From Gammaproteobacteria bacterium (lineage in GTDB: Bacteria > Pseudomonadota > Gammaproteobacteria > Arenicellales > JAJDZL01), in NCBI GenBank assembly GCA_022823625.1, contig JAJEHQ010000003.1:1-64000 (forward strand): 64,000 nucleotides of DNA, in the 5' to 3' direction. Made by a program: the position numbers and the translations under genes. How positions within the stretch are numbered: position 1 is the stretch's first letter; each line of letters begins with the position of its first letter. The notes below the pieces were generated by a model. That model was not told the origin of the DNA, made no database searches, and saw only the letters and a list, made by a program, of their open reading frames with translations. This document shows positions 1,990 to 31,239 of this stretch, in pieces.

Positions 1990-2874
1990 TCACCAATTTT
2001 CATCAGTGATATCAACGGGGTTATAACCGCACAATGCGCATTTATTTTCCTCAACGATATAACTTTGCCTTCTACAACCAGGGCAAGGTTCAAGCGCCCA
2101 ATCTCCCGTATCGTTGTAAGAAAGGTAATATTCGTGATACTTTTCGTTGATTAGTGCTGCCTCAAATATAGTCTCTCGCTCATGAATTGCACCACATGAT
2201 GAGCATAAAAGTTCGATCGAATATTCGTCTGCATTTCCTTCATCTAGTTGCATGATGAGTGAGGAACCACAGGACGGGCAACTAAGCTGCTCTATGGCTT
2301 GTTCAAGAATTGGTGAACCGAAGCTAACTGAACCAAAGGAACTAATACATCTAGCATGCTCTTTTTCATAAACTTCATTGGCTTCAAGTAGAGCCTGCCA
2401 TGTTTTCTGCCCAAGTAATGCAATAGGCAATTCGTTTAAGTGATCAACTACTAAACGATGAACGAGGACGAAAGTACCTGATAAAGCTTCCCGAAGCAGT
2501 GGCTCAGGTTTCTTACTGTAGAAATGTTCAATTTCGTTTCTTATCTCAGATATTCTGTTTAGACGATTCCAGTCTAATGACAACCCTAAACTTTCAAACC
2601 GTTCCTGAATTTGCGTTCGATTGACTGTTTTCCGCCCCTTGCCAACAAATATGATGGTTCCATCATCCCCTTTTGAAGGAAGTATTCTAGACTTGATTAA
2701 CACATCATTTGAGTTCTTTGGGCTATGTCTTACCAGAACTTCTTTGCATAAGAGGAGAATGCCAGCATAAATATTACGGATGGCTGAAAGAGACCGCGCA
2801 TACTGACCTGAGTGAAGATCCTTGACACCCATACTAATTGATAGAATGGCGTTTCCAATTAGGCTATCAGTCAT
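1990..2874 (-). CDS. DUF4145-like protein with C-terminal zinc ribbons
   Basis: 294 aa ORF; CPSCG..CSSCG and CPGC..CALCG pairs after a helical N-terminal domain. Confidence 0.6.
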   Translation of the reverse strand: MTDSLIGNAILSISMGVKDLHSGQYARSLSAIRNIYAGILLLCKEVLVRHSPKNSNDVLIKSRILPSKGDDGTIIFVGKGRKTVNRTQIQERFESLGLSLDWNRLNRISEIRNEIEHFYSKKPEPLLREALSGTFVLVHRLVVDHLNELPIALLGQKTWQALLEANEVYEKEHARCISSFGSVSFGSPILEQAIEQLSCPSCGSSLIMQLDEGNADEYSIELLCSSCGAIHERETIFEAALINEKYHEYYLSYNDTGDWALEPCPGCRRQSYIVEENKCALCGYNPVDITDENW

Positions 2875-3046: not shown

Positions 3047-3754
3047 TGAGTTATGCCCAAATGTAGTGCGTGCCGGGGGTAGAAAAAAAAGCGGCGTATC
3101 TGGTTAAATGTAGAAAACCACTTTTACAACCAACCAGAGAGGTACGCCACTATGGATAAGGATAACCTAATTGAATTTGAAAGTCGAGACATTTCACCTG
3201 ATGTTGTGACCGAATTGGTTCGCACCGGTGCCAGACGGATACTGGCGCAGGACCTGAAGCTTGAGGTGGAGGGATTTCTCGCTCAGTATGAGGGACAGTA
3301 TGCTGGGAACGGGCTCAGGGCGGTGGTTCGAAGTGGCTGGCAGACTGAGCGTGATATACAGACTGGTACTGGGCCGGTTTCGGCTCGGATTCCGAAGGTT
3401 CGCTCGAACACCGGCGAGCCGGTGTCGTTCCGCTCGGCACTGATTCCACCGTATGTCCGAAAGACGGCGACGGTTGAGGCGTTTGTGCCGTGGCTTTATC
3501 TGAAGGGTGTGTCAAGCGGTGAGATGGTGGATACCCTGAAGGTTCTGTTGGGCGGCGGGGCGCAGGGTTTTTCAGCCTCATCGGTGTCCCGACTGACGCA
3601 GCAGTGGAATGAGGAACTCAGGCGATGGCAGCAGCGCGGCAAAGTGATGGAGGGAGTGAAATTTATTAACGGAATTGAGTTGAATTACAATGACACCGAC
3701 CAGGTAGCCGCTTAGTGACGCTTTCCGTCACGCACTACATTTGGGCATAACTCA
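3047..3754 (+). mobile_element. internally deleted IS256-family element with intact terminal inverted repeats
   Basis: Perfect 26-bp inverted repeats TGAGTTATGCCCAAATGTAGTGCGTG at 3047-3072 and 3729-3754, surrounding a shortened transposase ORF. Confidence 0.85.
3152..3715 (+). pseudogene. IS256-family transposase, N-terminus joined in frame to extreme C-terminus
   Basis: DISPDVVTELVRTGARRILAQDLKLEVEGFLAQYEG..IPKVRSNTGEPVSFRSALIPPYVRKT.. is typical IS256 N-terminus; 187 aa rather than ~400. Confidence 0.85.
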
Positions 3755-4311: not shown

Positions 4312-5661
4312 ATGTCGGAAAAAAAGATTACATTCCTTATCGACAATTTATCCGAGGGACTAGATGTTGAAGTGAAGAATTGGCTCAACGGGTTAAAGTC
4401 GAATGAGGACAAATCCACCTTAGCTAAAGAAATCATAGCATTGGCCAACAGTGGTGGTGGACACATATTCATTGGATTTGACGATCAAGGCGATCAGTTC
4501 GTTGAAGTTCAAGCACAGGGCGGCGAGTTTGATGCATTTACTCAAGATAGTATCGCTAATGTAGTAAACAAGTATGTATCACCACCATGTCAATGTTCTG
4601 TAAGCTACCATCGACAAAAGGATTCAACTATCACACATCCCGTAATTACCGTTCCGGGTGACCATCGCACCCCAGTGTGGGCGAAACATGGAGGACCTGA
4701 TAATAAAAATCTTCAACCTGAATCTGTGTATGTTCGACGACCGGGCGGAGCCAGTGAACGTGCAAGAACTCAAGATGATTGGGAAAAGTTGTTGGATAGA
4801 TTAGTCAAGGCTCGACAAAATGAATTGCTTAGCGCGATGCGTAACGTTCTGAATCCTCCACAAAGAGTAATTCGACCAGAGGAGAGTCTCGATCTATGGG
4901 ACAAAAAGTGTCTTAATCTTTGGATCGAAAAGATCAGCGCACTTCCTGATTCTGACGCACGACGCAATGAAAAGGGATACTGGACGGTGTCATTCGCGAT
5001 CGAAACTTTTAATCGACCAAGCTTGACAACTTTAAGAAAGAAACTGGCGAACGAGATTCCGATCTATTCGGATTGGCCACCATTTACATTCTTAACTGAC
5101 CATCCTCGGAGTCCTTCTGCACGGGGCGATGAAATTGAAGCTTGGCTTGCCCGTAACCAATCGGTTGATGAGTTTGTAAGTGAAGACGTTTATGCAGACT
5201 ACTGGCGGCTATCAAATCGCGGTAAAGGTTTTTTACTCCGACCGATGCAAGAAGATCGCGCAGGCTTTTTATCTAACTTCTATCCAAAACCGGTAGGTCC
5301 ATATTTTGATTGGACTCTTCCAATTTACCGAATGACCGAAATTCTAAAGTTTGTGGAGTCACTCGCAGGACACTTTGCTGACAGGAATTCTAAGTTCTCA
5401 TTATTTCTCAACTACTATGGAACAAATAGCAGGAAACTCGTAAATTGTTCCCATAAATATTACCTGTCCGAAGGAGCTGAGTGTTCTCATTCGCAACTGA
5501 CTGCTAGGCTGGATGGTGTGGTGTCTCAAATTGGAATGACTCTAGAGGAAGCTATATTCACTTTATTGAGACCAATTTACGAACAGTTCAACTTTACGGA
5601 ACTCCCGAAAGAATTGGTAGATTCCGTTGTTCAAGATACCCTATCAAACCAAAGCATGTAG
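4312..5661 (+). CDS. AlbA_2 (Schlafen-like) putative DNA/nucleic acid-binding domain protein
   Basis: EVKNWLNGLKSNEDKSTLAKEIIALANSGGGHIFIGFDDQGD motif; 449 aa. Confidence 0.8.
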   Translation: MSEKKITFLIDNLSEGLDVEVKNWLNGLKSNEDKSTLAKEIIALANSGGGHIFIGFDDQGDQFVEVQAQGGEFDAFTQDSIANVVNKYVSPPCQCSVSYHRQKDSTITHPVITVPGDHRTPVWAKHGGPDNKNLQPESVYVRRPGGASERARTQDDWEKLLDRLVKARQNELLSAMRNVLNPPQRVIRPEESLDLWDKKCLNLWIEKISALPDSDARRNEKGYWTVSFAIETFNRPSLTTLRKKLANEIPIYSDWPPFTFLTDHPRSPSARGDEIEAWLARNQSVDEFVSEDVYADYWRLSNRGKGFLLRPMQEDRAGFLSNFYPKPVGPYFDWTLPIYRMTEILKFVESLAGHFADRNSKFSLFLNYYGTNSRKLVNCSHKYYLSEGAECSHSQLTARLDGVVSQIGMTLEEAIFTLLRPIYEQFNFTELPKELVDSVVQDTLSNQSM

Positions 5662-6532: not shown

Positions 6533-6826
6533 TCAGGTTCTGTAAAGAATTTCCATAAGCTCATCTCTTGCTCTCGGGAACTTTTCTGGTTTAATCGATG
6601 GAGGGGTAACCGCCTCAAGTATTTCCAGTTTGTCAGCCGGACTGGCTCGCAGATACATTTCGGTTGTCTTGATGTCCGCATGACCCAGCCACAACGACAC
6701 TATTCGGATGTCGCGCGTAGCTGTCAGTATGGTCATTGCAGTTGAATGACATGCGGGGTGATGCGTTTGCTCTTTAATGATGGCATGCTTTGTGAGGCTG
6801 TGTGCTATTACCAAAAATGCCCACAC
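6533..6826 (-). pseudogene. tyrosine recombinase/integrase C-terminal remnant
   Basis: ACHSTAMTILTATRDIRIVSLWLGHADIKTTEMYLRASPADKLEIL: HxxT..LGHxxxxTTxxY catalytic signature. Confidence 0.7.
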
Positions 6827-9606: not shown

Positions 9607-10812
9607 TTAAGGTAAAACTTTGCTCAAGAACGCCTCGACATCCATTATAGGAATGTCATATTGACGCGCCTTTCGTGCCTTGCCCGAATGACTTGCCGGG
9701 TCAGCTGCTACGAGGACATCGCAATTACGCTTCGTCACACTTGTCACTGGTATCAGACGTGCAATTGTTGCTTTGTACTCAAGTTCCGATCTGGAAATTG
9801 TTGTTCCACCGACAAAGGCAGTGCCTGTAAAACAGACGTACATGCCTTCGTAAAGGTCGCTGTTCTCAGCTAAACCAGTGATTTCTGGAAACGGTTCTTT
9901 ATCTAATTCTAAGGCTTGTGCAATTTTCTCAATGTATGCGAACTCTGTCGGAGTCACGATTCCGTCTCGTTCGGCACATGCGATAATGGTTGCCAAGTGG
10001 AGTCTCTTCAGTTCAATCACATCTTCGTCAGTGAGCTTCAATTCCGCCTGGAGATTCCGCAAATATCGATGTTCGTCGCGATCGATTACAGCGTCATCCA
10101 AAACATAGTTCAGTGCGTAGCGATAGATTCCAGTGGGCTGGTTATTCCATGGAGACTCTGTATATGAAATGATTCGTTGAGATAGGGAAGGCAATTTGTT
10201 TGATACGTTTCGTCTTAGTGTGCGAGGATTTGGTTCTCCTTGAGGGACAATTGATGAAGGTTGCAAATCGCTTAAATCAATGACATTGTCGCGAACCAAT
10301 TGACCAAATATCTGAGCGGTTGCTCTTGCATCACCTAAAGCGCAATGCGCAAGATGGTTCACGTTGTATTCCTTGCACGCTAGTTCTAGTTTCAATCCAG
10401 TGTTTTTGTACGTACAAATTCCTTCACCGAATCTACCGTAGTTCCCGAGTCGCGAAAATTCGTTAGACAACATTTTTTTGTCAAACGACCAATTGTGAGC
10501 AACGGGTACTGCACCATCCAGACGATGGGCAACTACTGGAGCTATATCGGCAAAAGTTGGCGCTGATTCAACCATAGTCGCAGTAATTCCATGTACATGA
10601 GTGGCTGTAATATCACGCTCGGGATTAATGAGTGTGTCATACTCCTCGGCAGTTTTTAATGTTTCAGGGTCGAGAGTAATAAGAGCCATTTCAATAACTC
10701 GGTCTTGGTTGCCGAATCCTGTCGTTTCGACATCTACGACAACAAACTTGGTGTAGTTCAAGATTTTCATATCGACATTCTCTTGGAGATTGAAAAAATT
10801 GTCAAAACTCAA
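9607..10812 (-). CDS. DEDDh (DnaQ-like) 3'-5' exonuclease with central TerB-like and C-terminal BRCT domains
   Basis: FVVVDVETTGFGNQDRVIEMA, HNWSFDKKML, HCALGDARATAQIF (Exo motifs); YVLDDAVIDRDEHRYL..ACAERDGIVTPTE (TerB-like); MYVCFTGTA...VTKRNCDVLVAADPASHSGKARKARQYDIPIM (BRCT). Confidence 0.85.
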   Translation of the reverse strand: MSFDNFFNLQENVDMKILNYTKFVVVDVETTGFGNQDRVIEMALITLDPETLKTAEEYDTLINPERDITATHVHGITATMVESAPTFADIAPVVAHRLDGAVPVAHNWSFDKKMLSNEFSRLGNYGRFGEGICTYKNTGLKLELACKEYNVNHLAHCALGDARATAQIFGQLVRDNVIDLSDLQPSSIVPQGEPNPRTLRRNVSNKLPSLSQRIISYTESPWNNQPTGIYRYALNYVLDDAVIDRDEHRYLRNLQAELKLTDEDVIELKRLHLATIIACAERDGIVTPTEFAYIEKIAQALELDKEPFPEITGLAENSDLYEGMYVCFTGTAFVGGTTISRSELEYKATIARLIPVTSVTKRNCDVLVAADPASHSGKARKARQYDIPIMDVEAFLSKVLP

Positions 10813-11054: not shown

Positions 11055-13199
11055 ATGTTGCTTGACAAAGAATTAGTGGATTACGAAGCAGTCAGTGCGG
11101 GAAAAGCAGGAAAAAAACTCGTTTCTTTCATCAAGGAAAAAGAGATTGTTGGTGACCTGCTTTCGTTGGATTACACTGAGGCGATAATACTTGTTCATGA
11201 CGCCATGCGCCAATCTGTTGGGGGGTTACCTCTGGGATGTTTTTTACTAGCTACCAGATTGGAAGTCAATGCCGCCCCCGACCCGGATGATGAAGACACC
11301 GCGCTGATATTGCTGCGTGTCGCAGGTCAAGCAACCCTACCCAATAGGGCAGATACCGAACAATGGCGGTTCGACGCTGCGCTTCGTTCCATTGATTCAG
11401 ATCAACAATGGGATGCCGAAAAGAATGCTGATCAATTTACATTGAATCTTTTGCGTCATGCGGGAATTCGATGCCGAGTGCTGGGAACGTTTCGCTATGT
11501 TCTATCGGTGGGGAAATGGAATCTGAACTTTGGTGCTGATATATCCAACTTTTATTCAGGGCAGGGAATGAAAGTGTTCAAACCGATGGGGGACGCTCTG
11601 AAAGAAATAGTCAACTTCACGAAACCAACGGGCAAAATGCACGAGCTGTCAGGATCAATGGAAACCATTGGAAATGTTCGCTATGCGTCAACTCAAATAT
11701 CGTTTGATCAATCTCAAGAAAATGTCCCAGTATCAATGGAACCGACTGATTTGCTGGCGCGAAGGACTGCGCTATTCGGAATGAGTCGTAGCGGGAAATC
11801 TAATACGATCAAAACGCTTGTGGAGTCGCTCTTTAAATTGAGGAAGTTCAACTCTGAGAAAGGCAGAATTGGACAGTTGATTTTTGATGTGAACGGAGAG
11901 TATTGCAACGACAATCCGCAAGACGAAGGATGCTTAAGAAATATCAGCGAAAGTGACGTAGTAACCTATGGTCTGTTTACTCATCCGCATGACCCGAGGA
12001 GGCGTTTAATCAAGATCAATTTCTTCGGAGAAGATGTATCTGATTGGAGTGATCAAGACAGCGTCAATTCAGCACTCAACATGATGCGCGCAGGAAAGTC
12101 TGTCATCGATGATCATTTGTCCGATGCCAATGCTCAGTATAAAAAGAATTTCAGAGCTACAAGTCTTGATACACCTGAATCGCTTGAGGCTAGAAATATA
12201 CAAACGCGATTTAGACGGACTGTTTGCGTCTATCGAGCGATACTTTATCTTGCTGGATTCAATCCGCCTACTCAACTACGCGAAGCTTGGATTAGTGGGC
12301 TGTTTAGCAGGGATTTTAGGGATGCGCTTGAACAATATGGAAAAAGTTACGCCGCTAGGACTCTCGCAAAAAGTTCTGCATCCTGGGATGACTTTAGCGG
12401 TGCGGTCAAAGATCTTCATGAGTTTATCTTAGGTGCTGGTAAAGCGAGTTATGAAAATTTCAATTCGCAATATAAACAAAGCCACAATGGTAAAGACTGG
12501 GCTGACGATACACTGCGTGGTTTGCTTTCAATTCTTGATTATGTTGGCGGTGTCAATTCAATACGAGAGGTGCGAAATCGACATGACCCAATTGTGCGAG
12601 ATGACTACGCAGAAAAAATCGTAGATGAACTCATAAACGGAAATCTTGTTATCGTGGATCAATCAATTGGGGCACCTGAGGAGGTTAAAATTACCTCCGA
12701 ACGTGTAATGGAGAAGTTGTTTAATCGACAAAAGGTTGCATTTACCAATCCTAAACGAAATGATCAAGGTGAAATTGTCAGAGATGGTTCTGGCAATATA
12801 GTACCTCCGCCAGACGTTATTGTCTATGCTGAGGAAGCGCACAACCTGCTTCCATCTAAAGATGCAGATCTAGGCTCGATCTGGGCGCGGTGTGCGAAGG
12901 AAGGATCAAAATTTCGTATTGGTCTTGTCTATTCAACTCAGGAACCCAGTTCTATCCTTTCAAACATTCTCAAAAATACGGATAACTGGTTTGTCGCTCA
13001 TTTGAACAATCAAGACGAAACTCGGGAGCTTCGAAAATATTACGATTTTGAATTATTTGTCGATCAGATTTTGAAGGTGCCTGACACCGGGTTCGTCCGA
13101 ATGCGGTGCCTTTCAAACCCGTTTATTGTACCGGTACAGATAAAAAAATTCGTCTGTGACAATTACACCGACTATCAACAAACAGACGAAAAATTTTGA
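11055..13199 (+). CDS. herA-like: HerA-like FtsK/HerA superfamily ATPase
   Basis: Walker A LFGMSRSGKSNTIKTL; Walker B VIVYAEEAHNLLP; 714 aa; overlaps the next ORF. Confidence 0.85.
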   Translation: MLLDKELVDYEAVSAGKAGKKLVSFIKEKEIVGDLLSLDYTEAIILVHDAMRQSVGGLPLGCFLLATRLEVNAAPDPDDEDTALILLRVAGQATLPNRADTEQWRFDAALRSIDSDQQWDAEKNADQFTLNLLRHAGIRCRVLGTFRYVLSVGKWNLNFGADISNFYSGQGMKVFKPMGDALKEIVNFTKPTGKMHELSGSMETIGNVRYASTQISFDQSQENVPVSMEPTDLLARRTALFGMSRSGKSNTIKTLVESLFKLRKFNSEKGRIGQLIFDVNGEYCNDNPQDEGCLRNISESDVVTYGLFTHPHDPRRRLIKINFFGEDVSDWSDQDSVNSALNMMRAGKSVIDDHLSDANAQYKKNFRATSLDTPESLEARNIQTRFRRTVCVYRAILYLAGFNPPTQLREAWISGLFSRDFRDALEQYGKSYAARTLAKSSASWDDFSGAVKDLHEFILGAGKASYENFNSQYKQSHNGKDWADDTLRGLLSILDYVGGVNSIREVRNRHDPIVRDDYAEKIVDELINGNLVIVDQSIGAPEEVKITSERVMEKLFNRQKVAFTNPKRNDQGEIVRDGSGNIVPPPDVIVYAEEAHNLLPSKDADLGSIWARCAKEGSKFRIGLVYSTQEPSSILSNILKNTDNWFVAHLNNQDETRELRKYYDFELFVDQILKVPDTGFVRMRCLSNPFIVPVQIKKFVCDNYTDYQQTDEKF

Positions 13200-14527
13200 T
13201 GCCATTTTTTAAAGAAACGGCGACAGGGGACAGTTTAATCTGGCTGCAGAATAGTCAGGTTCTTCGTGAGTTCGAGGAATCTATATTCGTAAAACCAATA
13301 GCAGCGCCGATTCAACCTCCTATGTTGCAAGTTGTTCGGTCTGATTGGCTTCCATCTCGTGTTATCGCCATTGATGGATCACATCTAACCCATCGAGTTA
13401 ACAATGGATTGCCAGGCGCGGAAGCCGGGTTGGTGATGATTTCTGTCGTCGTGATCAAACTTGAATTGCTCGGCAAACAATTACCAGGCACGATACTCAG
13501 TCCAGCATTTTTCAGAGACATGGAAAATGTACAGACTCTAGAGTCTGCGATGCCGGGAATCGGTGTGACTCGAGTCAATGTAGAAGATGACACACCAATT
13601 GATTTTTACAGGCAAAAAGTTTACGACACTCTATTGAGTTCTGTCGGTAAAGATCACGAAACGTTGCTGGATACCTTGCACGAAATCTGTGAAAATGACC
13701 AATTTATGCCGCGAATTTCTTGCCCAATAACTGACTGTGAGCGAGGCTATGAATATAGGCAGGGCGAATATTACTGTAGTTGCAGCAGAAAAGAAAAACT
13801 GTTCGAAACGGACGTGTTGAGGTTGCACGAATACTTTGACGATAACCGCACAAGTGTTGAGGCGATTAGCCGCTTGCGCTCCGTGCTTGAAGTTTTGATT
13901 TTGATAAATATTTTGAGATTTTTTGCTGAGCGCGCGCCAGACTATCTGAAGGACTGTGCGTTCGTTCTGGATGGACCTCTGGCTATTTTTGGAACGACAG
14001 CATCAATACTGAGACCTGTCAGGAAAGAGATTACGAGAATTTCAAAAATTGCGAGACAGCACAACGGCAAAGACATCGTGCTGTTTGGCATCGAAAAAAC
14101 TGGGAGGATGAAAGAGCATTGGGAGCAACTTGACTATGATGATGATCGAGGGCCGAGATCTCGCTTTCCAGACCAAACAGTTATTGTTCCGGATCATGCT
14201 TATATACAAGCAAACATTGCGCCATCCAATCTAAGTGGAAAACCATTTGGTCAGGATACTCATTTTGGTCGAGTTGTTCTCTATAAAACCTCAAGAGGAA
14301 AACAAATTGTGGTTTATACAGGGATGTTGAACGACATTTCATCTGATTTTCGATCAAATATGTCAGAATGCTATCCAAGGCTCGGTGACACTCTTAACGT
14401 GGTGGATAATTTGGCGACTTATATTTACGAAGATGGATTCTTGCCTCTAATTCGCGCACACGCTCATGCAGCTATCCCACTCAAAAGAGGCACAGACATA
14501 ATAAAAAGCTTGTTTGAAGACAAATGA
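13196..14527 (+). CDS. nurA-like: NurA-domain nuclease
   Basis: VIAIDGSHLTHRVNNGLPGAEAGLVMISVVVIKL; FVLDGPLAIFG; IVLFGIEKTGRMKEH; immediately follows the HerA ORF with overlap. Confidence 0.75.
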   Translation: MMPFFKETATGDSLIWLQNSQVLREFEESIFVKPIAAPIQPPMLQVVRSDWLPSRVIAIDGSHLTHRVNNGLPGAEAGLVMISVVVIKLELLGKQLPGTILSPAFFRDMENVQTLESAMPGIGVTRVNVEDDTPIDFYRQKVYDTLLSSVGKDHETLLDTLHEICENDQFMPRISCPITDCERGYEYRQGEYYCSCSRKEKLFETDVLRLHEYFDDNRTSVEAISRLRSVLEVLILINILRFFAERAPDYLKDCAFVLDGPLAIFGTTASILRPVRKEITRISKIARQHNGKDIVLFGIEKTGRMKEHWEQLDYDDDRGPRSRFPDQTVIVPDHAYIQANIAPSNLSGKPFGQDTHFGRVVLYKTSRGKQIVVYTGMLNDISSDFRSNMSECYPRLGDTLNVVDNLATYIYEDGFLPLIRAHAHAAIPLKRGTDIIKSLFEDK

Positions 14528-15678
14528 ATCGACATCCGAGTAAGTTCGGAAATGCAACTGGTCGGTGGGCTGGATTCGGTCCGTATTACGCTATGTTCCC
14601 TGTCAAGTTCGCTAGTACGGTAATCGACTGTATGTCTTCTCCAGGCAGTCGGATTCTCGACCCATTTTGTGGACGCGGAACTGTCCCCTATATTGCTCAA
14701 ACAACTGGACGAGAGTCATTGGGAATTGACGTCAATCCGGTTGCCTGGGTATTTTCGAAAGTGAAAACTGATCCAGAGGTTGATGTTGACAAATTGCTGA
14801 ATAGGGTGCGAGAGGTGCAGAAAAATGTTTGCGGTGACGATAGTGTACCAGTCAATGAGTTTCAAGAGTGGGCGTGGAGCAGCGAAGTACTTGGATTCTT
14901 GAATGCAGCGCGACGGACTTTGGATTGGCGTTCCAACAGGACTGATCGAACATTAATGGGGTTTCTCCTGGTTAGTGTGCACGCCAGTAAGGGAGCAGGA
15001 CTGAGCAATCAAATGCAAAACTCCCGTTCTATGGGACCCGATTACGCGGTCAGGTGGTGGAAATCACGATCGCTTCGACCTCCTGAATATGATCCGGTAA
15101 CGCGAATAGGAGAAAAGATTGCGTGGCGTTACAAGCATGGGGTGGTTGGTTCAACTGACAATACCAAAATTGAACTTGGGGATTCCATGAAAATTCTTGA
15201 GCAACAAAATGGCGCACAATTTGATATGCTCTTTACATCCCCGCCGTATTGCAAGGTTACCGACTATCGTCAGGACAGCTGGATCAGGCTGTGGCTGCTG
15301 AATGAATCGGGGCCGTTACCGGATTGGAAAAAAGATCCACTCGTTCACAATTCCGAGTCCTATAAAGAGTTAATCAATTCTGTACTATCCATCGCTAAGC
15401 AGCGGTTGACGCCCAGAGCCATTGTTTGGATTAGAACGGACTCAAGAAAATATACAAAACAGGTAACCTTAGCAGCGGTTAGAAGAAATTGGCCAAAGAG
15501 GAAGTTGCTGATTCGACAAGATATTCCAAAAAATGGTACGCAAACCGATCACTACAAAAATGGTTCGTCATCTAAGCGACTAGGAGAAGTCGATATAGTA
15601 TTACCCGGCAATCGACAACTTCCATTCCAAGGATCAATTTGGGAAGAGCTAAAGATCGGCTATATACCTAACATCTGA
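14524..15678 (+). CDS. DNA methyltransferase (N4-cytosine/N6-adenine, TSPPY type)
   Basis: SAM motif RILDPFCGRGTVPYIAQTTGRESLGIDVNPVAWVFSKVK; catalytic DMLFTSPPYCKVTDYRQD; overlaps NurA by 4 nt. Confidence 0.85.
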   Translation: MNRHPSKFGNATGRWAGFGPYYAMFPVKFASTVIDCMSSPGSRILDPFCGRGTVPYIAQTTGRESLGIDVNPVAWVFSKVKTDPEVDVDKLLNRVREVQKNVCGDDSVPVNEFQEWAWSSEVLGFLNAARRTLDWRSNRTDRTLMGFLLVSVHASKGAGLSNQMQNSRSMGPDYAVRWWKSRSLRPPEYDPVTRIGEKIAWRYKHGVVGSTDNTKIELGDSMKILEQQNGAQFDMLFTSPPYCKVTDYRQDSWIRLWLLNESGPLPDWKKDPLVHNSESYKELINSVLSIAKQRLTPRAIVWIRTDSRKYTKQVTLAAVRRNWPKRKLLIRQDIPKNGTQTDHYKNGSSSKRLGEVDIVLPGNRQLPFQGSIWEELKIGYIPNI

Positions 15679-16185: not shown

Positions 16186-17508
16186 TTGGGATCCATGGAT
16201 AGATTTCAAACAATAATTGATTCCTCTATCAGAGTATTTGACTCCGCATATACGGATGAGGTATCTCAATTCTTTGTCGAGATCATCATTTTGATATTGG
16301 GTATTGCAGTAGTTGCAAGAATATTTGCGTGTTTTAATCGATTGAAATTTTTCAGATTTCTTGCGAATTACTTGGGGTTTTTGGATAAATCCGCGCCTGC
16401 ACTATTGATGACCATTGGTGTGCTCGGAACATTCACCGGCATACTCCTAGGTTTATTAGATTTCAATGTCGAGAATATTGATGAAAGTGTGCCGGAACTG
16501 CTATCAGGATTGAACATTGCTTTTACCACAAGTATTTTTGGCATCGTTGCCGCGGTTAGCCTGAAACTCATCCAGACTGTTACACCCTCACCCGATAAAG
16601 GAGTGGTTGGTGTTACACCCGAAAAAATCCATACAACTTTGGAATCCATAAAAACAGCAATAGTTGATGGTGCGGAGCAAGAACGAACAGCTCTACAAGA
16701 ACTCCGAAAGTCTATATCCGCAGAGGACGATAGCAGCCTGCTTACCCAAGTTCAAAAACTTCGTATCGATCTAAAAGATGGTTTAGGTGAGTTAAAGCAG
16801 GAATTTTGGAATTTTGCTAAGACAATGGCAGAAAATAATTCCAAAGCACTCATTGAAGTCCTTGAGAGTGTTATACGGGATTTCAACACGCAATTGAATG
16901 AGCAATTTGGTGACAACTTTAAACAATTGAATGAAGCTGTTGCTGCTCTACTGACCTGGCAAGAAAATTATCGCAAGCATGTTGAAACCCTACAGGATGA
17001 ATTCACTAAAGTTCAGCAGGGTATATTGGCTTCGGAAGAGGCCATTCGAAATATTTCGTCACATACCGAATCAATTCCAGACACACTTCAGAAACTAGAA
17101 AAAATTGTCGATAACACCCATGAATCTATTGTAGATTTGAACGGACATCTGGATGCAGTATCTGGATTAAGGGATAAGGCGCTACAAGCATTTCCGACAA
17201 TTGACGAAAACTTGAAACAAATAACCGACGACTTAACAAACTCTATCAATGAAGTTGTCAGGAACACATCTGATGCACTTTCTAAACAACAAGAATCGAA
17301 CAATTCTTTATTTCATGCATTGGACAAAATTCCAAAAATGGTAGATGAGCGAATGACCGAATTTGACGAACGTGTGAAAAATGAACTAGAAAAGAATATT
17401 CAAGTATTGGCGAGTAATCTAGTTTCACTGTCGGAAAAATTTGTTGAAGACTACACTCCACTCACAAATAAGCTACGTGAAGTAGTTAGGATTGCGGAGA
17501 ACAAGTGA
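16186..17508 (+). CDS. zorA-like: ZorA-like MotA/TolQ/ExbB proton channel protein with long coiled-coil tail
   Basis: TM segments EIIILILGIAVVARIF, LLMTIGVLGTFTGILLGLL, SGLNIAFTTSIFGIVAAVSLKL; then long helical tail. ATG likely at 16195. Confidence 0.8.
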   Translation: MGSMDRFQTIIDSSIRVFDSAYTDEVSQFFVEIIILILGIAVVARIFACFNRLKFFRFLANYLGFLDKSAPALLMTIGVLGTFTGILLGLLDFNVENIDESVPELLSGLNIAFTTSIFGIVAAVSLKLIQTVTPSPDKGVVGVTPEKIHTTLESIKTAIVDGAEQERTALQELRKSISAEDDSSLLTQVQKLRIDLKDGLGELKQEFWNFAKTMAENNSKALIEVLESVIRDFNTQLNEQFGDNFKQLNEAVAALLTWQENYRKHVETLQDEFTKVQQGILASEEAIRNISSHTESIPDTLQKLEKIVDNTHESIVDLNGHLDAVSGLRDKALQAFPTIDENLKQITDDLTNSINEVVRNTSDALSKQQESNNSLFHALDKIPKMVDERMTEFDERVKNELEKNIQVLASNLVSLSEKFVEDYTPLTNKLREVVRIAENK

Positions 17509-18215
17509 TGGCGATGGAAAGATTTTTTGGACAAGGGGTCTCATCTGAAGAAGAAAACTGGATTTCAATTTCCGATCTTATGGCTGGGTTAATGGTAATT
17601 TTCCTTTTTATCGCAATAACTTATATCCGACCGATAATTGAAATTCAGAATCAAATCCGCGAAATAGTCGTAGCATGGAATGATTCGGAACTTGAAATTT
17701 ATGACGCACTGGAGCGGGAGTTTAAAGACGATTTGCCAAAATGGCATGCAGAATTGGACCCAGAAACGCTTGCCGTACGATTTAAGGCTCCAGATGTCTT
17801 GTTTGATTCTGGAACAGCAAATCTTAAACCTGAATTCGAGGAAATATTGAGTGATTTCTTTCCGCGTTACATCAAACTACTCTACGTATTTCGAGAGGCG
17901 ATTAGCGAGATTCGAATTGAAGGTCACACATCATCAGAATGGGAGGGCGCATTAACTGATGATGAGGCGTACTTCAATAACATGGTGCTTTCACAAGCTC
18001 GAACGAGGACAGTGCTTGTATATTCCCTCGGATTGCAAGAGGTTGTTGAATACAAGGAATGGGCAAGAGATCAGCTTACTGCGAATGGATTATCCTCAAG
18101 CCAATTGATATATGTTAGTCAGCAAGAAGACAAAATCCAATCACGACGAGTTGAATTTAGAGTGAGAACTAATAGCAAAGAACAAATCGTTAAGGTTCTG
18201 GAAACTATCGAGTGA
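17505..18215 (+). CDS. zorB-like: ZorB-like MotB/OmpA-domain protein
   Basis: WISISDLMAGLMVIFLFIAITYI single TM with conserved Asp; OmpA-like VLFDSGTANLKPEF...IRIEGHTSSEW...LSQARTRTVLVYSL; overlaps ZorA. Confidence 0.8.
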   Translation: MMAMERFFGQGVSSEEENWISISDLMAGLMVIFLFIAITYIRPIIEIQNQIREIVVAWNDSELEIYDALEREFKDDLPKWHAELDPETLAVRFKAPDVLFDSGTANLKPEFEEILSDFFPRYIKLLYVFREAISEIRIEGHTSSEWEGALTDDEAYFNNMVLSQARTRTVLVYSLGLQEVVEYKEWARDQLTANGLSSSQLIYVSQQEDKIQSRRVEFRVRTNSKEQIVKVLETIE

Positions 18216-18230
18216 GAAACCAGATTCAAG

Positions 18231-19076
18231 ATGGATATTGACATTGATCAATTGTTCAAACCTCTGCTTAATGAGATGGGTGCTAAACGTTCTATTTGGT
18301 TTCCCCTTAGTCAGCTTAAAGCTCGTGAAGAGGTGCACAAAAGACTTCTACAAGGTGTTGAAATGTCAAATCCTTGGGAGCAACTCCACTTCACTCCTGA
18401 AGGATTTTTAACTCATGAAGAAGAACAAATTGTTCTGTATATCAAAGATACTCAGTTAGAGAAAGTTATGCTTCTAAATTCCCCTGAAGATACGCGACGA
18501 TTCCATATTCGTAACTGCAAAACGTTGCAACAGATGTTTATAGACAATCGTATTGACAGATATGTAGCAACGAATAGAAGCGATGGAAAATTTTCAGTTG
18601 ACGCCGCAGATTCAAAGCAATCTATCGATGCTACGCTATTTATTTGCAAAAATTGTCTAATTGAATTGAACTGGAAAGGGTATGTTGATCTCGGAAAACC
18701 TGCGAATATATGGAAAGGATTTTGTTTAAGAGAATTCTTTGCTGAATATTCAACATTTTTTGTTAATATGCCCAAATATACTGAACACACTAGTCCCCGA
18801 TCAGGATACACAAAAGACTGGCCTCGAATTAGCAGGCAATATAAAGAACAGCGAGGTTGGCGCTGCGAACAGTGCGAAGTAGAGCTGTCAGACTCTCGTC
18901 ATAGGAGTTTGTTGCATGTACATCACATGAATGGGCGAAGCGAAGATAATAACCATAGCAATCTTAGAGCATTGTGTAGACTTTGCCATTCGAAACAACC
19001 ACTTCATCAACGCTGTAGACCACCAATAGAGGAACAGAAATTAATTGAGAATTTACGTCAGCAGCAAAGTGTGTAA
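18231..19076 (+). CDS. HNH endonuclease (ZorE-like candidate)
   Basis: CEQCEVELSDSRHRSLLHVHHMNGRSEDNNHSNLRALCRLCHSKQP; 15 bp after ZorB. Confidence 0.8.
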   Translation: MDIDIDQLFKPLLNEMGAKRSIWFPLSQLKAREEVHKRLLQGVEMSNPWEQLHFTPEGFLTHEEEQIVLYIKDTQLEKVMLLNSPEDTRRFHIRNCKTLQQMFIDNRIDRYVATNRSDGKFSVDAADSKQSIDATLFICKNCLIELNWKGYVDLGKPANIWKGFCLREFFAEYSTFFVNMPKYTEHTSPRSGYTKDWPRISRQYKEQRGWRCEQCEVELSDSRHRSLLHVHHMNGRSEDNNHSNLRALCRLCHSKQPLHQRCRPPIEEQKLIENLRQQQSV

Positions 19077-19460: not shown

Positions 19461-20384
19461 ATGTTGAATCATGGTACCACAAAGAAAGTGGTGACACTTG
19501 CAGCAAAGATATCTTCCGATATTTGGCACCGTCTCTCTCTCGCCCATCAACTGCGTGCTCGCCTAGGGGAGGAGACAATAACAGATCTGCTAATCCTAGA
19601 AATGCTGCAATATCAGAGATCTAACGCCTTCTTTGTCTACCACCCGACAGGGCAAGAGGAGTCGTGCTATGGTGCTGATATGTTACTTTGGATTGTCCGA
19701 AGAAACGGAGGAAGCCGTTTCCTGGCCATACAGTCCAAAAAACTCTACCCCAACGGTCACTACACCGCCCTCAACCACTACAGGAGTGACGGGACCCGTC
19801 AAATTGATCTCCTGGAGAACTTCGCTCGCCAGTACCATGCTATACCGTTATATCTCCTTTATAACCACTACAATTCTTACAACTGGAAAAAATTTTGGCA
19901 TTGTTGCAATTCAGCTGAAATCGAACAACTGGGTTGTACCTTAGCGCCAAGCTGGAAGATAAAACGTGCGATCAATCAGCGAGGGCAACGGAAGTTTACA
20001 GCGATTCACGCGAGTGCGAATGTACGACCGTGGCGCTGCATATTCGACTGCGATCAAGCTGAACAGCAGATAAATCAATTTGTAACTAGCCACAAACAGA
20101 AACTCCCCATCCAAGGTCGCGAATCCGATACTGCACCAACAGCTGAATTGAACTCGTATCCTGAACTTCTTTCGATTGACTGGAGCGAATTCCTATCTAT
20201 GGATGCAGGTCCGTTGTCTAGTGTAGTTTTGGATAGCCTGCGCATGCAGATTGAAAGATATACGGACAATACCAGACTAAAAGAGGGGGAAAATCCGGTC
20301 TACCCCCGTAAGTTACTCATCGTCGATTACAGCTCTGTAGTCGAAGAGGGTGAAGCGCAACCTTCAAATAGGACACAAGAGTAG
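19461..20384 (+). CDS. DUF6615-like putative PD-(D/E)XK nuclease
   Basis: EESCYGADMLLWIVRRNGGSRFLAIQSKKLYPNGHY..QIDLLENFARQYHAIPLYLLYNHY: E..GAD..(x)Q-K nuclease-like core. Confidence 0.6.
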   Translation: MLNHGTTKKVVTLAAKISSDIWHRLSLAHQLRARLGEETITDLLILEMLQYQRSNAFFVYHPTGQEESCYGADMLLWIVRRNGGSRFLAIQSKKLYPNGHYTALNHYRSDGTRQIDLLENFARQYHAIPLYLLYNHYNSYNWKKFWHCCNSAEIEQLGCTLAPSWKIKRAINQRGQRKFTAIHASANVRPWRCIFDCDQAEQQINQFVTSHKQKLPIQGRESDTAPTAELNSYPELLSIDWSEFLSMDAGPLSSVVLDSLRMQIERYTDNTRLKEGENPVYPRKLLIVDYSSVVEEGEAQPSNRTQE

Positions 20385-20453
20385 GTTAACCACCATACTT
20401 ACGAAACGGGCGAATCAATTGATTAGCATATCAATCAACAAAGGAGTATATGG

Positions 20454-23400
20454 GTGACGCGAGACGAAATTGAAAAAGCCCTGCTTGCAGGGAGCGCTGT
20501 CATAGTCGATTCAGCAGCTGGAGACACCATCAAATTGGACTCGCGCCGTGCTAGACGCATGGTGGAATTAATTTTCAACGAACTACGGTCATCAACTGCC
20601 GATGACCTTGTCAAAGACGCGAAGTTTTTTGGTTTGCTCGAGAATGTGTTTGGTGAGAGTGTTGACAATATGGGGTCGGATATCGCCGGAAGCTACAGAG
20701 CAGATGTCGAGGAGGCAGACGAAAAATCCCGATCGTGGCGGCTGAAGAAAGTGGAAACTCGGGGATTTGGTGGTTTGAATGCTGTACCAGACGACGTATT
20801 TGAGTTTGATGTCACGGGTCGAGATACTTGTATTGAGGGTCAGAACGGCAGTGGAAAAAGTTCGTTAGCCAACGCGATACTATTTGCCATGATTGGCAAA
20901 GTCCACCGCGACCAATACGGCATATGGGAAGATGCTAAGCGATCAGAGCCTGTGATGTCCGATGACGGAGAAAAATTAGCGGATTGGCCTCCAATCGCGG
21001 TTTATCCCTTCACGTGGAAAAATGGAATTTCATCTGTGGATGTCTCGGTCACACTGACATTTGGGAATAATTTGGACGAAGAAGAAATAACAGCAACACG
21101 TCGTCTCCATGGCGAGCCCAACTCGCTTAATGAGGAGGTGTCCATTGACCCAAGACTTACGGCGGTTCCTACACTTGTGGAAGCAGGGTTGCTGATGCCA
21201 ATGCGGATTCAGCACATTCGGATGCCTAAGCGCGACGACAATGATCAACTTGTGGGTCTGATTCGCCAACTAATCGGTTTGGAGCCCTTGCTCAATGTAG
21301 CGAACCTAGTGGATAAGCTCTGCCACGGAAATCAGCGATTTCTGAAATACGCCCGAGATAATGATTCCGAAGGTAAGAAAGAAATCATTTATAGACTGTT
21401 GAAAGAAGCACAGGAAAAAATTGAAGAGTTGGACACGGGACTCGACCTGCACGTCGATATAGAAGCCAGAAAACCAATTTCCAGTGATTACCTAAAGAAT
21501 CTTGACGAAGCGAAAGAGGCGTTGACACGTAAACAGGCGGAAGGCTTTCAGGCACTTTCTGGGCTCGCGTTCAAAGAATTCGACCCAAATCAAGCTGAAC
21601 ATCGGCTACGTGTCATGAAGTCAGTCAATAAACTTTATTTAGACGCTGACGACCAGAGCAACTCTAATGATTTACCTGCAGTTCTTAAGGAAATATCAAC
21701 CCTTGCAAATCGGGTTGAGGAGCAAAAACTCGAAGATTTAAAATTTACGTTGGAAAAAGCGCAAAATGATCTAGCCAAAGCCGTCAAGTGGTCACACCAG
21801 CAGAAGAAAGACACGCTATTGCGGCTCAAGGCCGTGGCGGCGGAACATTTTGAAGATTGCAACGACCCACTGTGCCCACTGTGCGAACAATCGATCAAAG
21901 GGGTTGAGCATCGAAGCTTAGTCGAAGATCTTCGCACTCTGCAATCTGAAGCTGAGGTGGCCCAAAGTCGTCTTGCCGATGCCTGCCGGCGAATCGAACA
22001 ATATATTAAACAGGCAGCTCTGATTGTAGTTCCAGAATTATTCATGCAGGTTAAGCGTTTCGCCGTTAAGCGGAGCATCGAGAGTGACGTGCGATCGACT
22101 TTCGTAGAAGCTATCCATGTAGCTAAATACCTTCCTGGATTTGCTGAGGTAGCCCAAGACGCGATCAATGCAGCTTTCGCTGCGGTCGACGAGGTCGAGT
22201 TTGGTTCCGAGCTACCGGCGCCCGACGAAGGAGACGACGAAGCGAGGGTCAGAAGAATTATTGATCATATGAATGACATCATCCGAACGGCCGAGAACTG
22301 GCAACACTTTCACCAAAAATTTCAGGAAAGTTGGGACCGCTTGTTTTCACAGAATGAAGAGCAGACACTTACTACTCGTATTCTCCAGCTTAGGGAAATG
22401 ATCAACGGTACGGAGCCATTCCAGACGGCTAACGAGAAAGTTGAGCTTGCATTGGAGACTGCCTGCGAATACAACGAGATCGTCAAACGGCAGGTATTAC
22501 GGGAGGAAATAGCGGAAGAATTGAAGGCTCTTCGGAAGCTTCGAACGCTTGTCAATTTGACGACCCGTCAGACAATCGACGATGTCTCCTATATGGCAAA
22601 AGAAATCCACCAGCAAATATACAATCCTGAATTACTCAGCTATGAAAAAGCCGAAGTTTCAGAGTTTCGGGGCCGACAGTCACTGAATTTTCAAGCTAAG
22701 CTTGGGGATGATCTGAAATGGAGAATCGACGCGTCACTATTAGCAAATGTTTCTTGGATGCGAGGGATTTTGTGGTCGTTTGTGTTCGCAATTCGGCACC
22801 GGGCAATTAGTCATGCCGGGAATTGTCCATTTGAACTTATGGTGCTGGACGATCCGCAGATTACCTTCGATACCCGTAACTTGAAAGGGTGGGCTGAATT
22901 CTTAGGCTCTTCTGATGGGCTGAGACAGCGTCAGGCCTGTCAAATCCTAGTGACTACACACAGCATGCCTTTTGCACTGGAAATGACGGCCATGTGCGAA
23001 ATCAAAATGCTTGCGATTGAGACTGGTCAACCGTGGTCGAAACCAACACAAATTGTGGAAGGTGATTTTGCCAGAGTACGTTTCGATAAGATGATGACAG
23101 AGAACTCGGATGATCGTGCGCGTTTTCTAATCAGTGACATTCGAGTGTTGGCCGAGACATTGTTAAAGCATGCAATCGAGCCCTTCGATCCTTCATTTGT
23201 ACAGAAGCCGCAGGCAACGTTTGGGAGCATGATTGAGCGAATTGCAAATCAGAACGCAAACGGGCAACCGCATTATACGGATCGCGTATTTGATAAGTTG
23301 TTGGGTGTGAAAGCTACATATCCAAATGATTTTACCCGGCTGAATGAACCGCATCACTCGGCCTCAGAAACTATAACTGTTCGCGAGGGGAAACTAGCTT

Positions 23401-24350
23401 ATGAATTTTGGCGTGATAAACTTTTTCCCGCCGTTCATAAAGTATGGGAGGAGTTTCGATTTCTGCAGAAGTCTATAGTCGGAGAAACTGCTGCGATTCT
23501 TCTGCCGGCGAATTGTAATCACAAACCGCCTCGCTCTATAGACCTTGCCGCTGTTCAACCAAAAATCCTGGGGCGAGTGTCGGCTTATTCAGATGGGCGC
23601 GCTGCGTCGGCGATACGAATCGATCATTTGAGCAATGGCGATGCAATCAACATGAACGACCGAGCTTCGTATCGTCTTGAGAAGGATACTCTCTCACCCG
23701 TTGCCCGGGTTGGAGATATTCTGCTCACCCGCTTGGATAGGCAATGTCGTTCTCCCAACTTGGTCGTTGAGGATCGAGGCACACACCAAGTTGCGCGACG
23801 ATGGCTTAGAAATGCGGAAGCGCCCTCTCTAGCCATACTTGCTGCATCATCTTCGAATCCGAGGGAGGTTCCGCCAGTAATCATATCTCGGACGAAGGGT
23901 GCAAATCGGCGCAAGATCGTTGGTGTCTTGTTCACCGCAAACCGACAACCACCGGGAGAAAGGATTGAGCCTGACGCCGAAGCCACAAGTCTGGAGGCTA
24001 ATAATGGAATTGTGGCTGATCTCGTCGCCGATACCGATGTTTTTGAAGTTCAGGGTAGTAGCGCCGAACCGATAGCTTTGGACCGACAATACTTGTTAGC
24101 CAAATCGGCAAGGGATGATCTTGCAATAGCTCTACGTGAATTGGATGGCAAGCCAGTTATCGTTGAGGATGACGAAAACTGCGCCTACTTCAAACGTTTG
24201 CGAGTATTGGATTCGAAATCAGTCGTGCTCGAAAGTCTTGACAAGACTGGTTATGAAGATATAGTCCGTCTTTCAACTGACACGGAACAACCTAGTCCTC
24301 TGCTGGTCCGTGTTCGAGAGGTGGTGGGTGTTTTGTTCGACAAGTTGTAA
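20454..24350 (+). CDS. SMC/Rad50-like AAA ATPase with zinc-hook-like motif and C-terminal LexA/S24-like domain
   Basis: Walker [33 protein letters not shown] hook-like CPLC between coiled coils; Walker B FELMVLDDPQITFD; RBS aaggag at ~20441; GTG start. Confidence 0.85.
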   Translation: MTRDEIEKALLAGSAVIVDSAAGDTIKLDSRRARRMVELIFNELRSSTADDLVKDAKFFGLLENVFGESVDNMGSDIAGSYRADVEEADEKSRSWRLKKVETRGFGGLNAVPDDVFEFDVTGRDTCIEGQNGSGKSSLANAILFAMIGKVHRDQYGIWEDAKRSEPVMSDDGEKLADWPPIAVYPFTWKNGISSVDVSVTLTFGNNLDEEEITATRRLHGEPNSLNEEVSIDPRLTAVPTLVEAGLLMPMRIQHIRMPKRDDNDQLVGLIRQLIGLEPLLNVANLVDKLCHGNQRFLKYARDNDSEGKKEIIYRLLKEAQEKIEELDTGLDLHVDIEARKPISSDYLKNLDEAKEALTRKQAEGFQALSGLAFKEFDPNQAEHRLRVMKSVNKLYLDADDQSNSNDLPAVLKEISTLANRVEEQKLEDLKFTLEKAQNDLAKAVKWSHQQKKDTLLRLKAVAAEHFEDCNDPLCPLCEQSIKGVEHRSLVEDLRTLQSEAEVAQSRLADACRRIEQYIKQAALIVVPELFMQVKRFAVKRSIESDVRSTFVEAIHVAKYLPGFAEVAQDAINAAFAAVDEVEFGSELPAPDEGDDEARVRRIIDHMNDIIRTAENWQHFHQKFQESWDRLFSQNEEQTLTTRILQLREMINGTEPFQTANEKVELALETACEYNEIVKRQVLREEIAEELKALRKLRTLVNLTTRQTIDDVSYMAKEIHQQIYNPELLSYEKAEVSEFRGRQSLNFQAKLGDDLKWRIDASLLANVSWMRGILWSFVFAIRHRAISHAGNCPFELMVLDDPQITFDTRNLKGWAEFLGSSDGLRQRQACQILVTTHSMPFALEMTAMCEIKMLAIETGQPWSKPTQIVEGDFARVRFDKMMTENSDDRARFLISDIRVLAETLLKHAIEPFDPSFVQKPQATFGSMIERIANQNANGQPHYTDRVFDKLLGVKATYPNDFTRLNEPHHSASETITVREGKLAYEFWRDKLFPAVHKVWEEFRFLQKSIVGETAAILLPANCNHKPPRSIDLAAVQPKILGRVSAYSDGRAASAIRIDHLSNGDAINMNDRASYRLEKDTLSPVARVGDILLTRLDRQCRSPNLVVEDRGTHQVARRWLRNAEAPSLAILAASSSNPREVPPVIISRTKGANRRKIVGVLFTANRQPPGERIEPDAEATSLEANNGIVADLVADTDVFEVQGSSAEPIALDRQYLLAKSARDDLAIALRELDGKPVIVEDDENCAYFKRLRVLDSKSVVLESLDKTGYEDIVRLSTDTEQPSPLLVRVREVVGVLFDKL

Positions 24351-25111: not shown

Positions 25112-26698
25112 TCACGTATATGGCAGGAAATTGGTTTTACAGAGCGGAGTAAATTCGTTGGAAAAACAGCTTTTTCGAGATTTGCTCAAATCTAGATCTA
25201 TTTTCTTTTTCAACGCTTCGATTTCGGGTAATCTGTTAATTTGTCCATGAGATTTATCGACGTTTTTGACGATTTCTTCTAATTCTGGTGTTCCTAATTT
25301 CGATTCTTCTCGCAGCAAGTGCCAAATAGCCAGAAATTTTATAGATTTATCATTGAGTTCATCTGCAATTTTAATGGCATCAATATACAAATCTCTTCCC
25401 TTACTAAACTCACCTCTCCGATACTCAACTAGTCCATTTGTAGCAATTTGTACAGCCTTTCGGTTTTTGGGCAGTTGCATAGAGTTCAATTGATTTAGTT
25501 TTTTCGTAGCTTTTTCAATGTCGCCAATGTAAGCGTATGCAACTACTTGATTATTTATTACCATTGGATCATTTGGAATCCGTACAGCTGCCCGGTCTAA
25601 AAATGTTAACGCTTTGTCTCCATTTTCTAATGCGACAAGCGAAATAAATGCTCCAAAAACAAGCGGCATTAAAGATGTCGGTTCCATTTCATTCCATTTG
25701 ATGCATGCGGAAATTGCGTGCTCCCAGTTAAATGCTTGTCTTTCGCGCAACACCAATGCTTCTGGAGCGAGTTCAATCTCAAACAATTCTTCGGGAATAC
25801 TTGGAGCCCAACCTTTGATTGATGCCCACTCAGCTTGTGTAAAGGAATTCTCATTAGGGTCTCTAATGCTAAGCTTCATCAATTTACGTGCTTTACTATA
25901 TCTGCCATCAGCAAACAACACGGTTGCTGCAGCACCACATAATTCAGCTGAGTGTCGAGGTTCCCATACATCCTTCGTAACTTGATCAATTGCATATTTT
26001 AAGTATTTGCTTGATACACCCCCGACGTCAGAAAGAGATATTTCTGTTGCCTGTAGCCAAGGATCACGAGTTATTGAATTTGATTTGCGGAGTAAGTACA
26101 ATCCTCTATCTAAGTCGCCAGAATTTTCAAAAAATCGCGCTGCCGCTCGTAATACAAATCTATTCTCAGGAGCCAATTCTACCGCTATCTGTATACACTT
26201 AAATGAAGGTTCATTTTGGCCTAGTAGTGTATAAAGTCTTGCTAATTCCATCCAAGAAATTGCATCCCGAGGAGCGGTTCGTACCCGAATTTTCAATTTC
26301 GAAATATTTCTATAGATTGAAATAATGTTTCCAAGATTGCTAAATGTTGCATCATCTTCAATCGAGGACATCACACTTCCATTAAGTACCAATTTTGAAG
26401 CTCGAATGATGGCAGGAGCCACTTGATTACTTGATTCAATTAAGAAATTGGCTGCATTTTCTACTTCACTATTCACACCTACTACAATGCCACTAGAAAT
26501 TAGCTCTGCAGCATTTTCGATATTACGTTCCCTTTGCCATCTGGCAACCAATTCACTCAATAAAATACTAGTGTTGAAATTTACGGGCTGACTTGTAGAT
26601 TTCCGGGAAAATTGCAATTCTCCATGATCCGCAGATTGTGACAAAGTTCTCCAACGCGGTAAGAGTTTTCTATTGTTATAAGGCGTACTTCCGTTCAT
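25112..26698 (-). CDS. TPR-repeat protein
   Basis: Repeated helical units (PRDAISWMELARLYTLLGQNEPSFKCIQIAVELAPENRFVLRAAARFFENSGDLDRGLYLL). Confidence 0.75.
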   Translation of the reverse strand: MNGSTPYNNRKLLPRWRTLSQSADHGELQFSRKSTSQPVNFNTSILLSELVARWQRERNIENAAELISSGIVVGVNSEVENAANFLIESSNQVAPAIIRASKLVLNGSVMSSIEDDATFSNLGNIISIYRNISKLKIRVRTAPRDAISWMELARLYTLLGQNEPSFKCIQIAVELAPENRFVLRAAARFFENSGDLDRGLYLLRKSNSITRDPWLQATEISLSDVGGVSSKYLKYAIDQVTKDVWEPRHSAELCGAAATVLFADGRYSKARKLMKLSIRDPNENSFTQAEWASIKGWAPSIPEELFEIELAPEALVLRERQAFNWEHAISACIKWNEMEPTSLMPLVFGAFISLVALENGDKALTFLDRAAVRIPNDPMVINNQVVAYAYIGDIEKATKKLNQLNSMQLPKNRKAVQIATNGLVEYRRGEFSKGRDLYIDAIKIADELNDKSIKFLAIWHLLREESKLGTPELEEIVKNVDKSHGQINRLPEIEALKKKIDLDLSKSRKSCFSNEFTPLCKTNFLPYT

Positions 26699-26700
26699 TG

Positions 26701-30476: not shown

Positions 30477-31239
30477 TTACAACAGCCCAACACTGCGTAA
30501 TTGCCGATTGACAGTTCGCTTTACATGCTCGAAATGAGGTACTTCATTTGCTAAATGATTATCGAGTTCCTTTTCCCAGTAACGCTGGTACTGTTGTAAA
30601 CGCAACTGATATCTCGTTTCAAAATCACTCGGGTTCAATTTTCGATGTGTCGCTTTCTGTCGAAAAATATCCTCCGCATCACTCGGACTGATACTACCGT
30701 TTTCGAATAAGAACCAGAGATCAAATAAATCTCTGCACTGCATGCGCTGCATGATACATCGTAGCTTCTCGGCAGCAATCTCTACGAGTGGATACACCGA
30801 AACTGCAATCGAATCTGGTAAATCCGACCAGCGTGGTAAAAGGCACATAGTGTCAACGTTTAGGACAAGTTCATCGTCTGTGATATCGATTTTCAAGAAT
30901 CGTTGTCGACCCAGTGGTCCTTGATACGCAATTCTCTTCGGCTCGTCACCAGTCAGATTCAATCCTTCAACAGCACCTGTACTCGTGAAAGTGCTGTTTC
31001 GATGGTCGCGTGGGCACCATCAATTTCATCATCGACCACCGAAAAATCCAGATTAGTGGAATAACGATATTCTTCAAAGTAGCAAAGTCTTAGCGCTGTT
31101 CCACCCTTGAACACGAGACCATGGTTTTCGTCAATCGATCCAAGAGTGGCTATGAGGTAGGCTAACACCTAATCCCGTTCTACAGTTATTGCTGGCACAC
31201 TATCACGGGCCGCCTGTTGAGTAAATTGAGCAAGACTGC
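30477..31239 (-). pseudogene. AbiEii-type nucleotidyltransferase toxin, disrupted
   Basis: AQFTQQAARDSVPAITVERD*VLAYLIATLG..HGLVFKGGTALRLCYFEEYRYSTNLDFSV; TAG at 31169-31171 and frame change near 30960. Confidence 0.8.

Follow-up and report, generated by a model that had tools for sequence, protein, structure and literature searches.

In the Thermus TdpABC system, TdpC reportedly installs phosphorothioate in DNA and TdpAB degrades DNA that is unmodified. The system is cited as An et al. 2025 (doi 10.1038/s41589-024-01832-w), with structures in PDB entries 8wet, 8wfd and 8y1k. A related motor and nuclease form the HerA-NurA complex of S. solfataricus, D. radiodurans and T. kodakarensis, the last of which is reported to degrade both strands of dsDNA exonucleolytically (PMC12977600). 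In the Sir2-HerA and HerA-DUF4297 defence systems a HerA ring works with a nuclease or effector partner. The nearest published concept, judging from the accessible parts of its two sources, is that of the HerA/FtsK capture systems and BRC, in which HerA/FtsK motors serve defence together with nucleases or modification enzymes (PMC10853773, PMC12839542). Here we compare with these systems a three-gene operon of a Gammaproteobacteria bacterium (assembly GCA_022823625.1, contig JAJEHQ010000003.1), contained in a stretch of 64,000 nucleotides that we call the window.

The operon encodes a HerA-type ATPase, a NurA-like nuclease and a DNA methyltransferase (MTase) (Table 1). The earlier note had described three open reading frames overlapping end to start, and this was borne out, with TGATG at the HerA/NurA junction (13197-13201) and ATGA at the NurA/MTase junction (14524-14527). 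The first in-frame start of the nuclease frame is a TTG at 13196, followed three bases later by an ATG at 13199; the ATG is probably the true start because the N-terminus is conserved as MPY or MPF (alignment A1). A scan for promoters and terminators returned sites no more numerous than in shuffled sequence.

Table 1. Features of the operon and of the surrounding window. NurA residues are counted from TTG 13196.
Feature	Position	Strand	Evidence
PDC-S64 candidate	1990-2874	-	PADLOC; extends the island towards the left end of the contig
Schlafen AlbA_2 protein	4312-5661	+	Pfam; extends the island towards the left end of the contig
DEDDh exonuclease	9607-10812	-	PADLOC candidate PDC-S48, E 4e-86
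HerA/TdpA-like ATPase, 714 aa	11055..13199	+	DUF87 E 5e-11; best solved relative TdpA, E 7.1e-41
HerA Walker A GMSRSGKSNT	11778..11807	+	G242, R245, G247, K248 and S249 invariant in 30 aligned HerAs
HerA Walker B YAEEAHNLL	12825..12851	+	EEAH in 77/77 full-length relatives
NurA/TdpB-like nuclease	13199..14527	+	AF2 model: best PDB match TdpB 8wfd_G, E 5e-7, then NurA structures
NurA predicted catalytic Asp60	13373..13375	+	D in 88/90 relatives; also in TdpB
NurA Cys-rich (zinc-ribbon-like) insert C176..C196	13721..13783	+	C176/C181/C194 in 83/81/89 of 90 relatives; TdpB without it
NurA predicted catalytic Glu232	13889..13891	+	90/90 relatives; also in TdpB
NurA predicted catalytic Asp259 (LDGPLA motif)	13970..13972	+	90/90 relatives; also in TdpB
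NurA Lys301 (EKTG motif)	14096..14098	+	90/90 relatives; also in TdpB
DNA methyltransferase, class A, 384 aa	14524..15678	+	PF01555 E 4e-14; 23-member alignment A6; AF2 model resembles E. coli Dam
MTase SAM-binding motif I DPFCGRG, residues 46-52	14659..14679	+	D46, P47, F48 and G50 invariant (alignment A6)
MTase catalytic motif IV TSPPY	15235..15249	+	T238-Y242 invariant in 23 members
Type II Zorya ZorA2-ZorB2-ZorE2	16186-19076	+	PADLOC E 3e-89, 9e-90, 6e-78
DUF6615 protein, then 1298-aa SMC/RecF-like ATPase	19461-24350	+	ATPase with weak LmuB and mad3 similarity
Protein-kinase-like and partner pair	25112-27777	-	PADLOC candidate PDC-M71A/B
AbiEi and AbiEii	30477-32043	-	AbiEii covers profile positions 112-258 of 260 only, at the C-terminal end

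The labels of HerA-type ATPase and TSPPY DNA methyltransferase given in the earlier note were both confirmed. The first protein matches Pfam DUF87 (PF01935) above cutoff and has both GMSRSGKSNT and EEAHNLL, and K248 and E593/E594 are invariant in the alignment of 30 HerAs. When its profile was compared with solved structures, TdpA ranked first and the next chain followed at E 1e-19. By analogy with its relatives the protein would be expected to form a hexameric ring. The NCBIfam antiphage HerA models gave 52 bits against a cutoff of 800, and the individual PADLOC models gave weak, generic matches, a mad8-like one among them. A second HerA-like gene lies elsewhere in the same genome (G000:C18:127541-128642, E 4e-22).

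The middle protein has no match in Pfam, NCBIfam or PADLOC; Pfam NurA (PF09376) does not match it at E<0.1, and its relatives that do match PF09376 score 13.8-21 bits against a cutoff of 21. A PDB search with the single sequence found nothing, and a 40-sequence profile and an AF2 fold were needed. With the AF2 model, built from 40 relatives (pLDDT 88.6), Foldseek returned TdpB of the TdpAB-DNA complex as the best PDB match (E 5.2e-7), followed by NurA of S. solfataricus, D. radiodurans, T. kodakarensis, P. furiosus and T. maritima (E<=9e-4), and the profile matched TdpB at E 0.0035. The TM-scores with TdpB are modest (0.44/0.52), and the relation is therefore one at the level of fold. Judged by the model, the protein is NurA-like, with a NurA/RNase H-like fold; the earlier label stands for the fold, where TdpB and five NurAs agree, and would not be confirmed by sequence profiles alone. 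From their conservation and homology, D60, E232 and D259 are predicted to be the catalytic acidic residues that bind metal, and D60 may be equivalent to D49 of T. kodakarensis NurA, itself a predicted active-site residue (PMC12977600).

A profile scan of the GTDB species genomes with a four-sequence alignment (A2) yielded 139 relatives, and 80 of these loci were retained; the diversity of the eight-sequence alignment A1 made it unsuitable here. Of the 89 loci examined, 85 have HerA next to NurA. Among the 74 loci flanked by at least 1.5 kb on each side, 65 carry an MTase no more than 400 bp from the pair, against 0 of 20 loci of canonical PF09376 NurA (Fisher p 7e-14), a control set that is mostly archaeal and differs in lineage from the target group. 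After clustering at 50% NurA identity the linkage was 29/31 versus 0/20 (p 3e-12). Five of the nine loci with no near MTase are cyanobacterial and belong to one lineage, in which the pair is kept with no adjacent MTase; three have a broken or missing HerA (L032, L051 and L072), and in L064 the MTase lies 2.7 kb from the pair. Dozens of distant genomes have the same trio, which puts the arrangement far beyond chance.

Archaea and more than ten bacterial phyla were found to contain the trio, whose family is sporadic, occurring in 4 of 369 genomes of the same class, the source genome included. By tblastn, HerA-NurA-MTase was located on a Halorarius plasmid, and a Deferribacter megaplasmid was found to carry an MTase, an IS-interrupted HerA and NurA. 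In Deferribacter locus L005 (4952-8750) an IS200/IS605 element splits HerA, with MTase and NurA intact. A Vibrio prophage (L174, 1309-5750; PQ189371.1) carries HerA-NurA with a convergent MTase, flanked by integrase and excisionase, and its annotation notes the MTase alone, as type II. At L062 (6632-8014), where no HerA was found, a single ORF combines a partial class C MTase with the C-terminal region of NurA; it is probably a deletion product or an assembly error. A PADLOC and Pfam census of 96 proteins neighbouring the relatives found scattered known defence genes only.

The window MTase matches N6_N4_Mtase (PF01555), with motif I before motif IV (TSPPY, residues 238-242). For its AF2 model (pLDDT 87.2) the best match was E. 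coli Dam (E 2e-7), and PADLOC assigned it to 'MTase_II' only. By their motifs, the MTases linked to HerA-NurA fall into three topologically different classes, namely class A (about 375 aa, with motif I ahead of SPPY, the kind in the window; 26 loci), class B (D12/Dam-like, with EPFxGxG ahead of DPPY; 26 loci) and class C (SPPF first and DPFGGSN last; 20 loci). Motifs I and IV are intact in every class A and class B locus and in class C except at three fragmentary loci. The gene lies upstream, downstream or convergent relative to HerA-NurA, and it overlaps the core ORFs in 42 of 74 loci. In a HerA tree of 68 rows, a quick search in which several forks are open, MTase class tracks the clades and changes 8 times: class A occupies about three separate positions, class B in three or four and class C once, and the cyanobacterial loss of the MTase is nested in the class C clade. 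Comparative genomics thus shows that MTases were recruited several times, from at least three classes. Within classes A, B and C, HerA identity rises with MTase identity (Spearman 0.89, 0.84 and 0.41, respectively; 0 of 2000 permutations each), which would fit long co-inheritance, as expected, but linkage alone would give it too, a Mantel correlation being raised by co-inheritance of neighbouring genes alone.

The window HerA and NurA are homologous to TdpA and TdpB, their best solved relatives by profile and by fold; the active-site residues are common to TdpB and the window NurA, and a modification gene adjoins the pair in both systems. The window differs in that this gene encodes a DNA methyltransferase instead of TdpC, in its order (HerA-NurA-MTase versus TdpC-TdpB-TdpA), in the Cys-rich insert of its NurA, which TdpB lacks, and in the long branch of the HerA tree that separates window-type HerA from TdpA. 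Some Deinococcota genomes, probably Thermus, have a PP-loop (SGGKDS) gene followed by the TdpB homologue and then the TdpA homologue, and other Deinococcota carry a window-type pair with a class A (L122) or class B (L123) MTase. No TdpC-like or SGGKDS ORF was found in the 89 target loci or in the ORF list of the window island. In one Deinococcota Tdp locus (L118, 3879-7956) a transposase-like ORF interrupts the TdpB frame.

With the canonical HerA-NurA complex the operon shares the NurA fold and the HerA ATPase, but its NurA falls below Pfam NurA detection and the canonical loci have no MTase. It resembles Sir2-HerA and HerA-DUF4297 in its ring-type motor with a partner, whereas here a NurA-like protein is the partner, with an MTase in addition; neither a Sir2 nor a DUF4297 domain was found in that partner by Pfam or PADLOC. 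Like type I and III R-M enzymes, the locus unites a nuclease, an MTase and presumed ATP-driven translocation, with an FtsK/HerA-type ATPase and NurA instead of an SF2 motor and a PD-(D/E)XK nuclease, and PADLOC and Pfam found no HsdR or HsdS in the operon or the scanned flanks. The BREX, DISARM and MADS sets (PglZ-BrxC, DrmAB, mad1-8) were not recovered, PADLOC giving a weak mad8-like match for HerA and a mad3-like one for the ATPase downstream. The word 'NurA' is absent from the accessible text of PMC10853773 and PMC12839542, which does not describe a HerA-NurA-MTase trio. Papers on SXT/R391, CglI and terascale clustering were considered as prior descriptions and set aside, since they held references, unrelated genes or CRISPR-linked mentions instead. 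The trio is unnamed in PADLOC 2.0, NCBIfam 20 and the openly readable literature; subscription papers or older HerA surveys may describe it.

We consider the operon to be probably a defence system of the R-M type, in which a TdpAB-like restriction core is joined by an MTase that would serve as self-marker. The earlier note had proposed that the MTase marks self DNA and HerA-NurA degrades unmarked DNA, and had named as evidence against this a match to an existing defence model, absence of the NurA Asp/Glu residues and lack of a conserved association. All three came out in its favour: no PADLOC system was matched in a scan of the individual models, the acidic residues are kept, and the MTase linkage sets these loci apart from canonical NurA loci. 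For these three reasons we infer that R-M is the best reading. Its strongest argument is that the modification gene has been swapped across classes, yet some modification gene has been kept. The sporadic distribution, the defence-rich window and the prophage locus also favour it, whereas the five cyanobacterial loci, L064 and the scattered nature of defence genes next to the relatives count against it. The Tdp relation and the three MTase classes extend the original proposal, as do the adjacent type II Zorya system and the wider island. On the best reading, the phosphorothioate writer of a TdpAB-like core has been replaced by exchangeable DNA methyltransferases.

In the proposed mechanism the MTase would methylate a short chromosomal sequence of the host as the self mark. 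A NurA dimer would dock on a hexameric HerA ring pumping dsDNA, and the complex would degrade both strands of DNA that lacks the mark, by analogy with TdpAB and HerA-NurA. In the least certain step the MTase would also read the site and license the motor, as in type I and III enzymes. We put this step forward tentatively; what suggests it is that neither HerA nor NurA shows an obvious site-recognition domain and that MTase and HerA co-vary. It is also a serious possibility, short of a likely one, that the TdpAB-like HerA-NurA pair is a mark-agnostic chassis, paired in Thermus with a sulfur mark on the backbone and elsewhere with base methylation, for which three MTase classes are used.

In a rather unlikely version of the R-M scheme, HerA-NurA would attack any linear or broken dsDNA end with no site recognition, and methylated sites would stop or eject the moving ring in a 'Chi-like' manner, so that the host's own DNA survives and unmarked DNA is consumed. 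Relatives of TdpAB are held back by a backbone mark, the T. kodakarensis complex reportedly digests both strands exonucleolytically, and neither HerA nor NurA has an evident recognition domain, all of which agree with this version. A ring mostly contacting the backbone, however, would less obviously read a base methyl than a phosphorothioate, and the marks of the three MTase classes would probably fall in different contexts.

The cyanobacterial loci in which the pair stands alone suit the view of two independent modules, a HerA-NurA defence pair beside a solitary MTase, but the gene overlaps, the adjacency across more than ten phyla and the correlated divergence make it improbable. HerA-NurA is classically an end-processing pair for double-strand breaks, which speaks for a DNA repair operon, that is, a second end-resection pair whose MTase is incidental or regulatory. 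We regard this as very improbable and reject it on context: none of the 20 canonical NurA loci has an MTase, the trio is patchily distributed, and its MTase has been replaced repeatedly. Canonical NurA is also present in 5 of the 10 host genomes tested, and the NurA of the trio is thus not the sole NurA in those five hosts.

By its gene content the window is a predicted defence island, comprising PDC-S64, a Schlafen-AlbA protein, PDC-S48, the trio, Zorya II, DUF6615, an SMC-like ATPase, PDC-M71AB and AbiE. The PDC-S48 exonuclease gene is divergent from HerA and lies about 240 bp upstream of it. The Zorya genes did not reach the NCBIfam equivalog cutoffs. DUF6615 and the SMC/RecF-like ATPase possibly form a separate defence pair, and AbiEii, from its profile coverage, is probably a truncated partner. 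An IS256-like transposase fragment (3152-3715, plus strand) and a C-terminal remnant of a tyrosine integrase (6533-6826, minus strand) were noted by eye. That the trio belongs to the type II Zorya system, whose ZorA2/ZorB2/ZorE2 genes follow 0.5 kb downstream on the same strand, is extremely improbable and was rejected on context, given the 508-bp gap and the absence of Zorya from the leading families of the neighbour census.

If HerA-NurA is indeed a mark-agnostic chassis, it would represent a type of ATP-dependent restriction in which a hexameric FtsK-family pump replaces the SF2 translocase. The R-M reading, if true, would mean that a widespread architecture has been left unlabelled, since Pfam, PADLOC and NCBIfam all miss its nuclease and annotation treats its MTase as generic type II. 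It would link Tdp phosphorothioate restriction with ordinary methylation, and would make testable the question of how a DNA-threading ring nuclease reads a base methyl mark.
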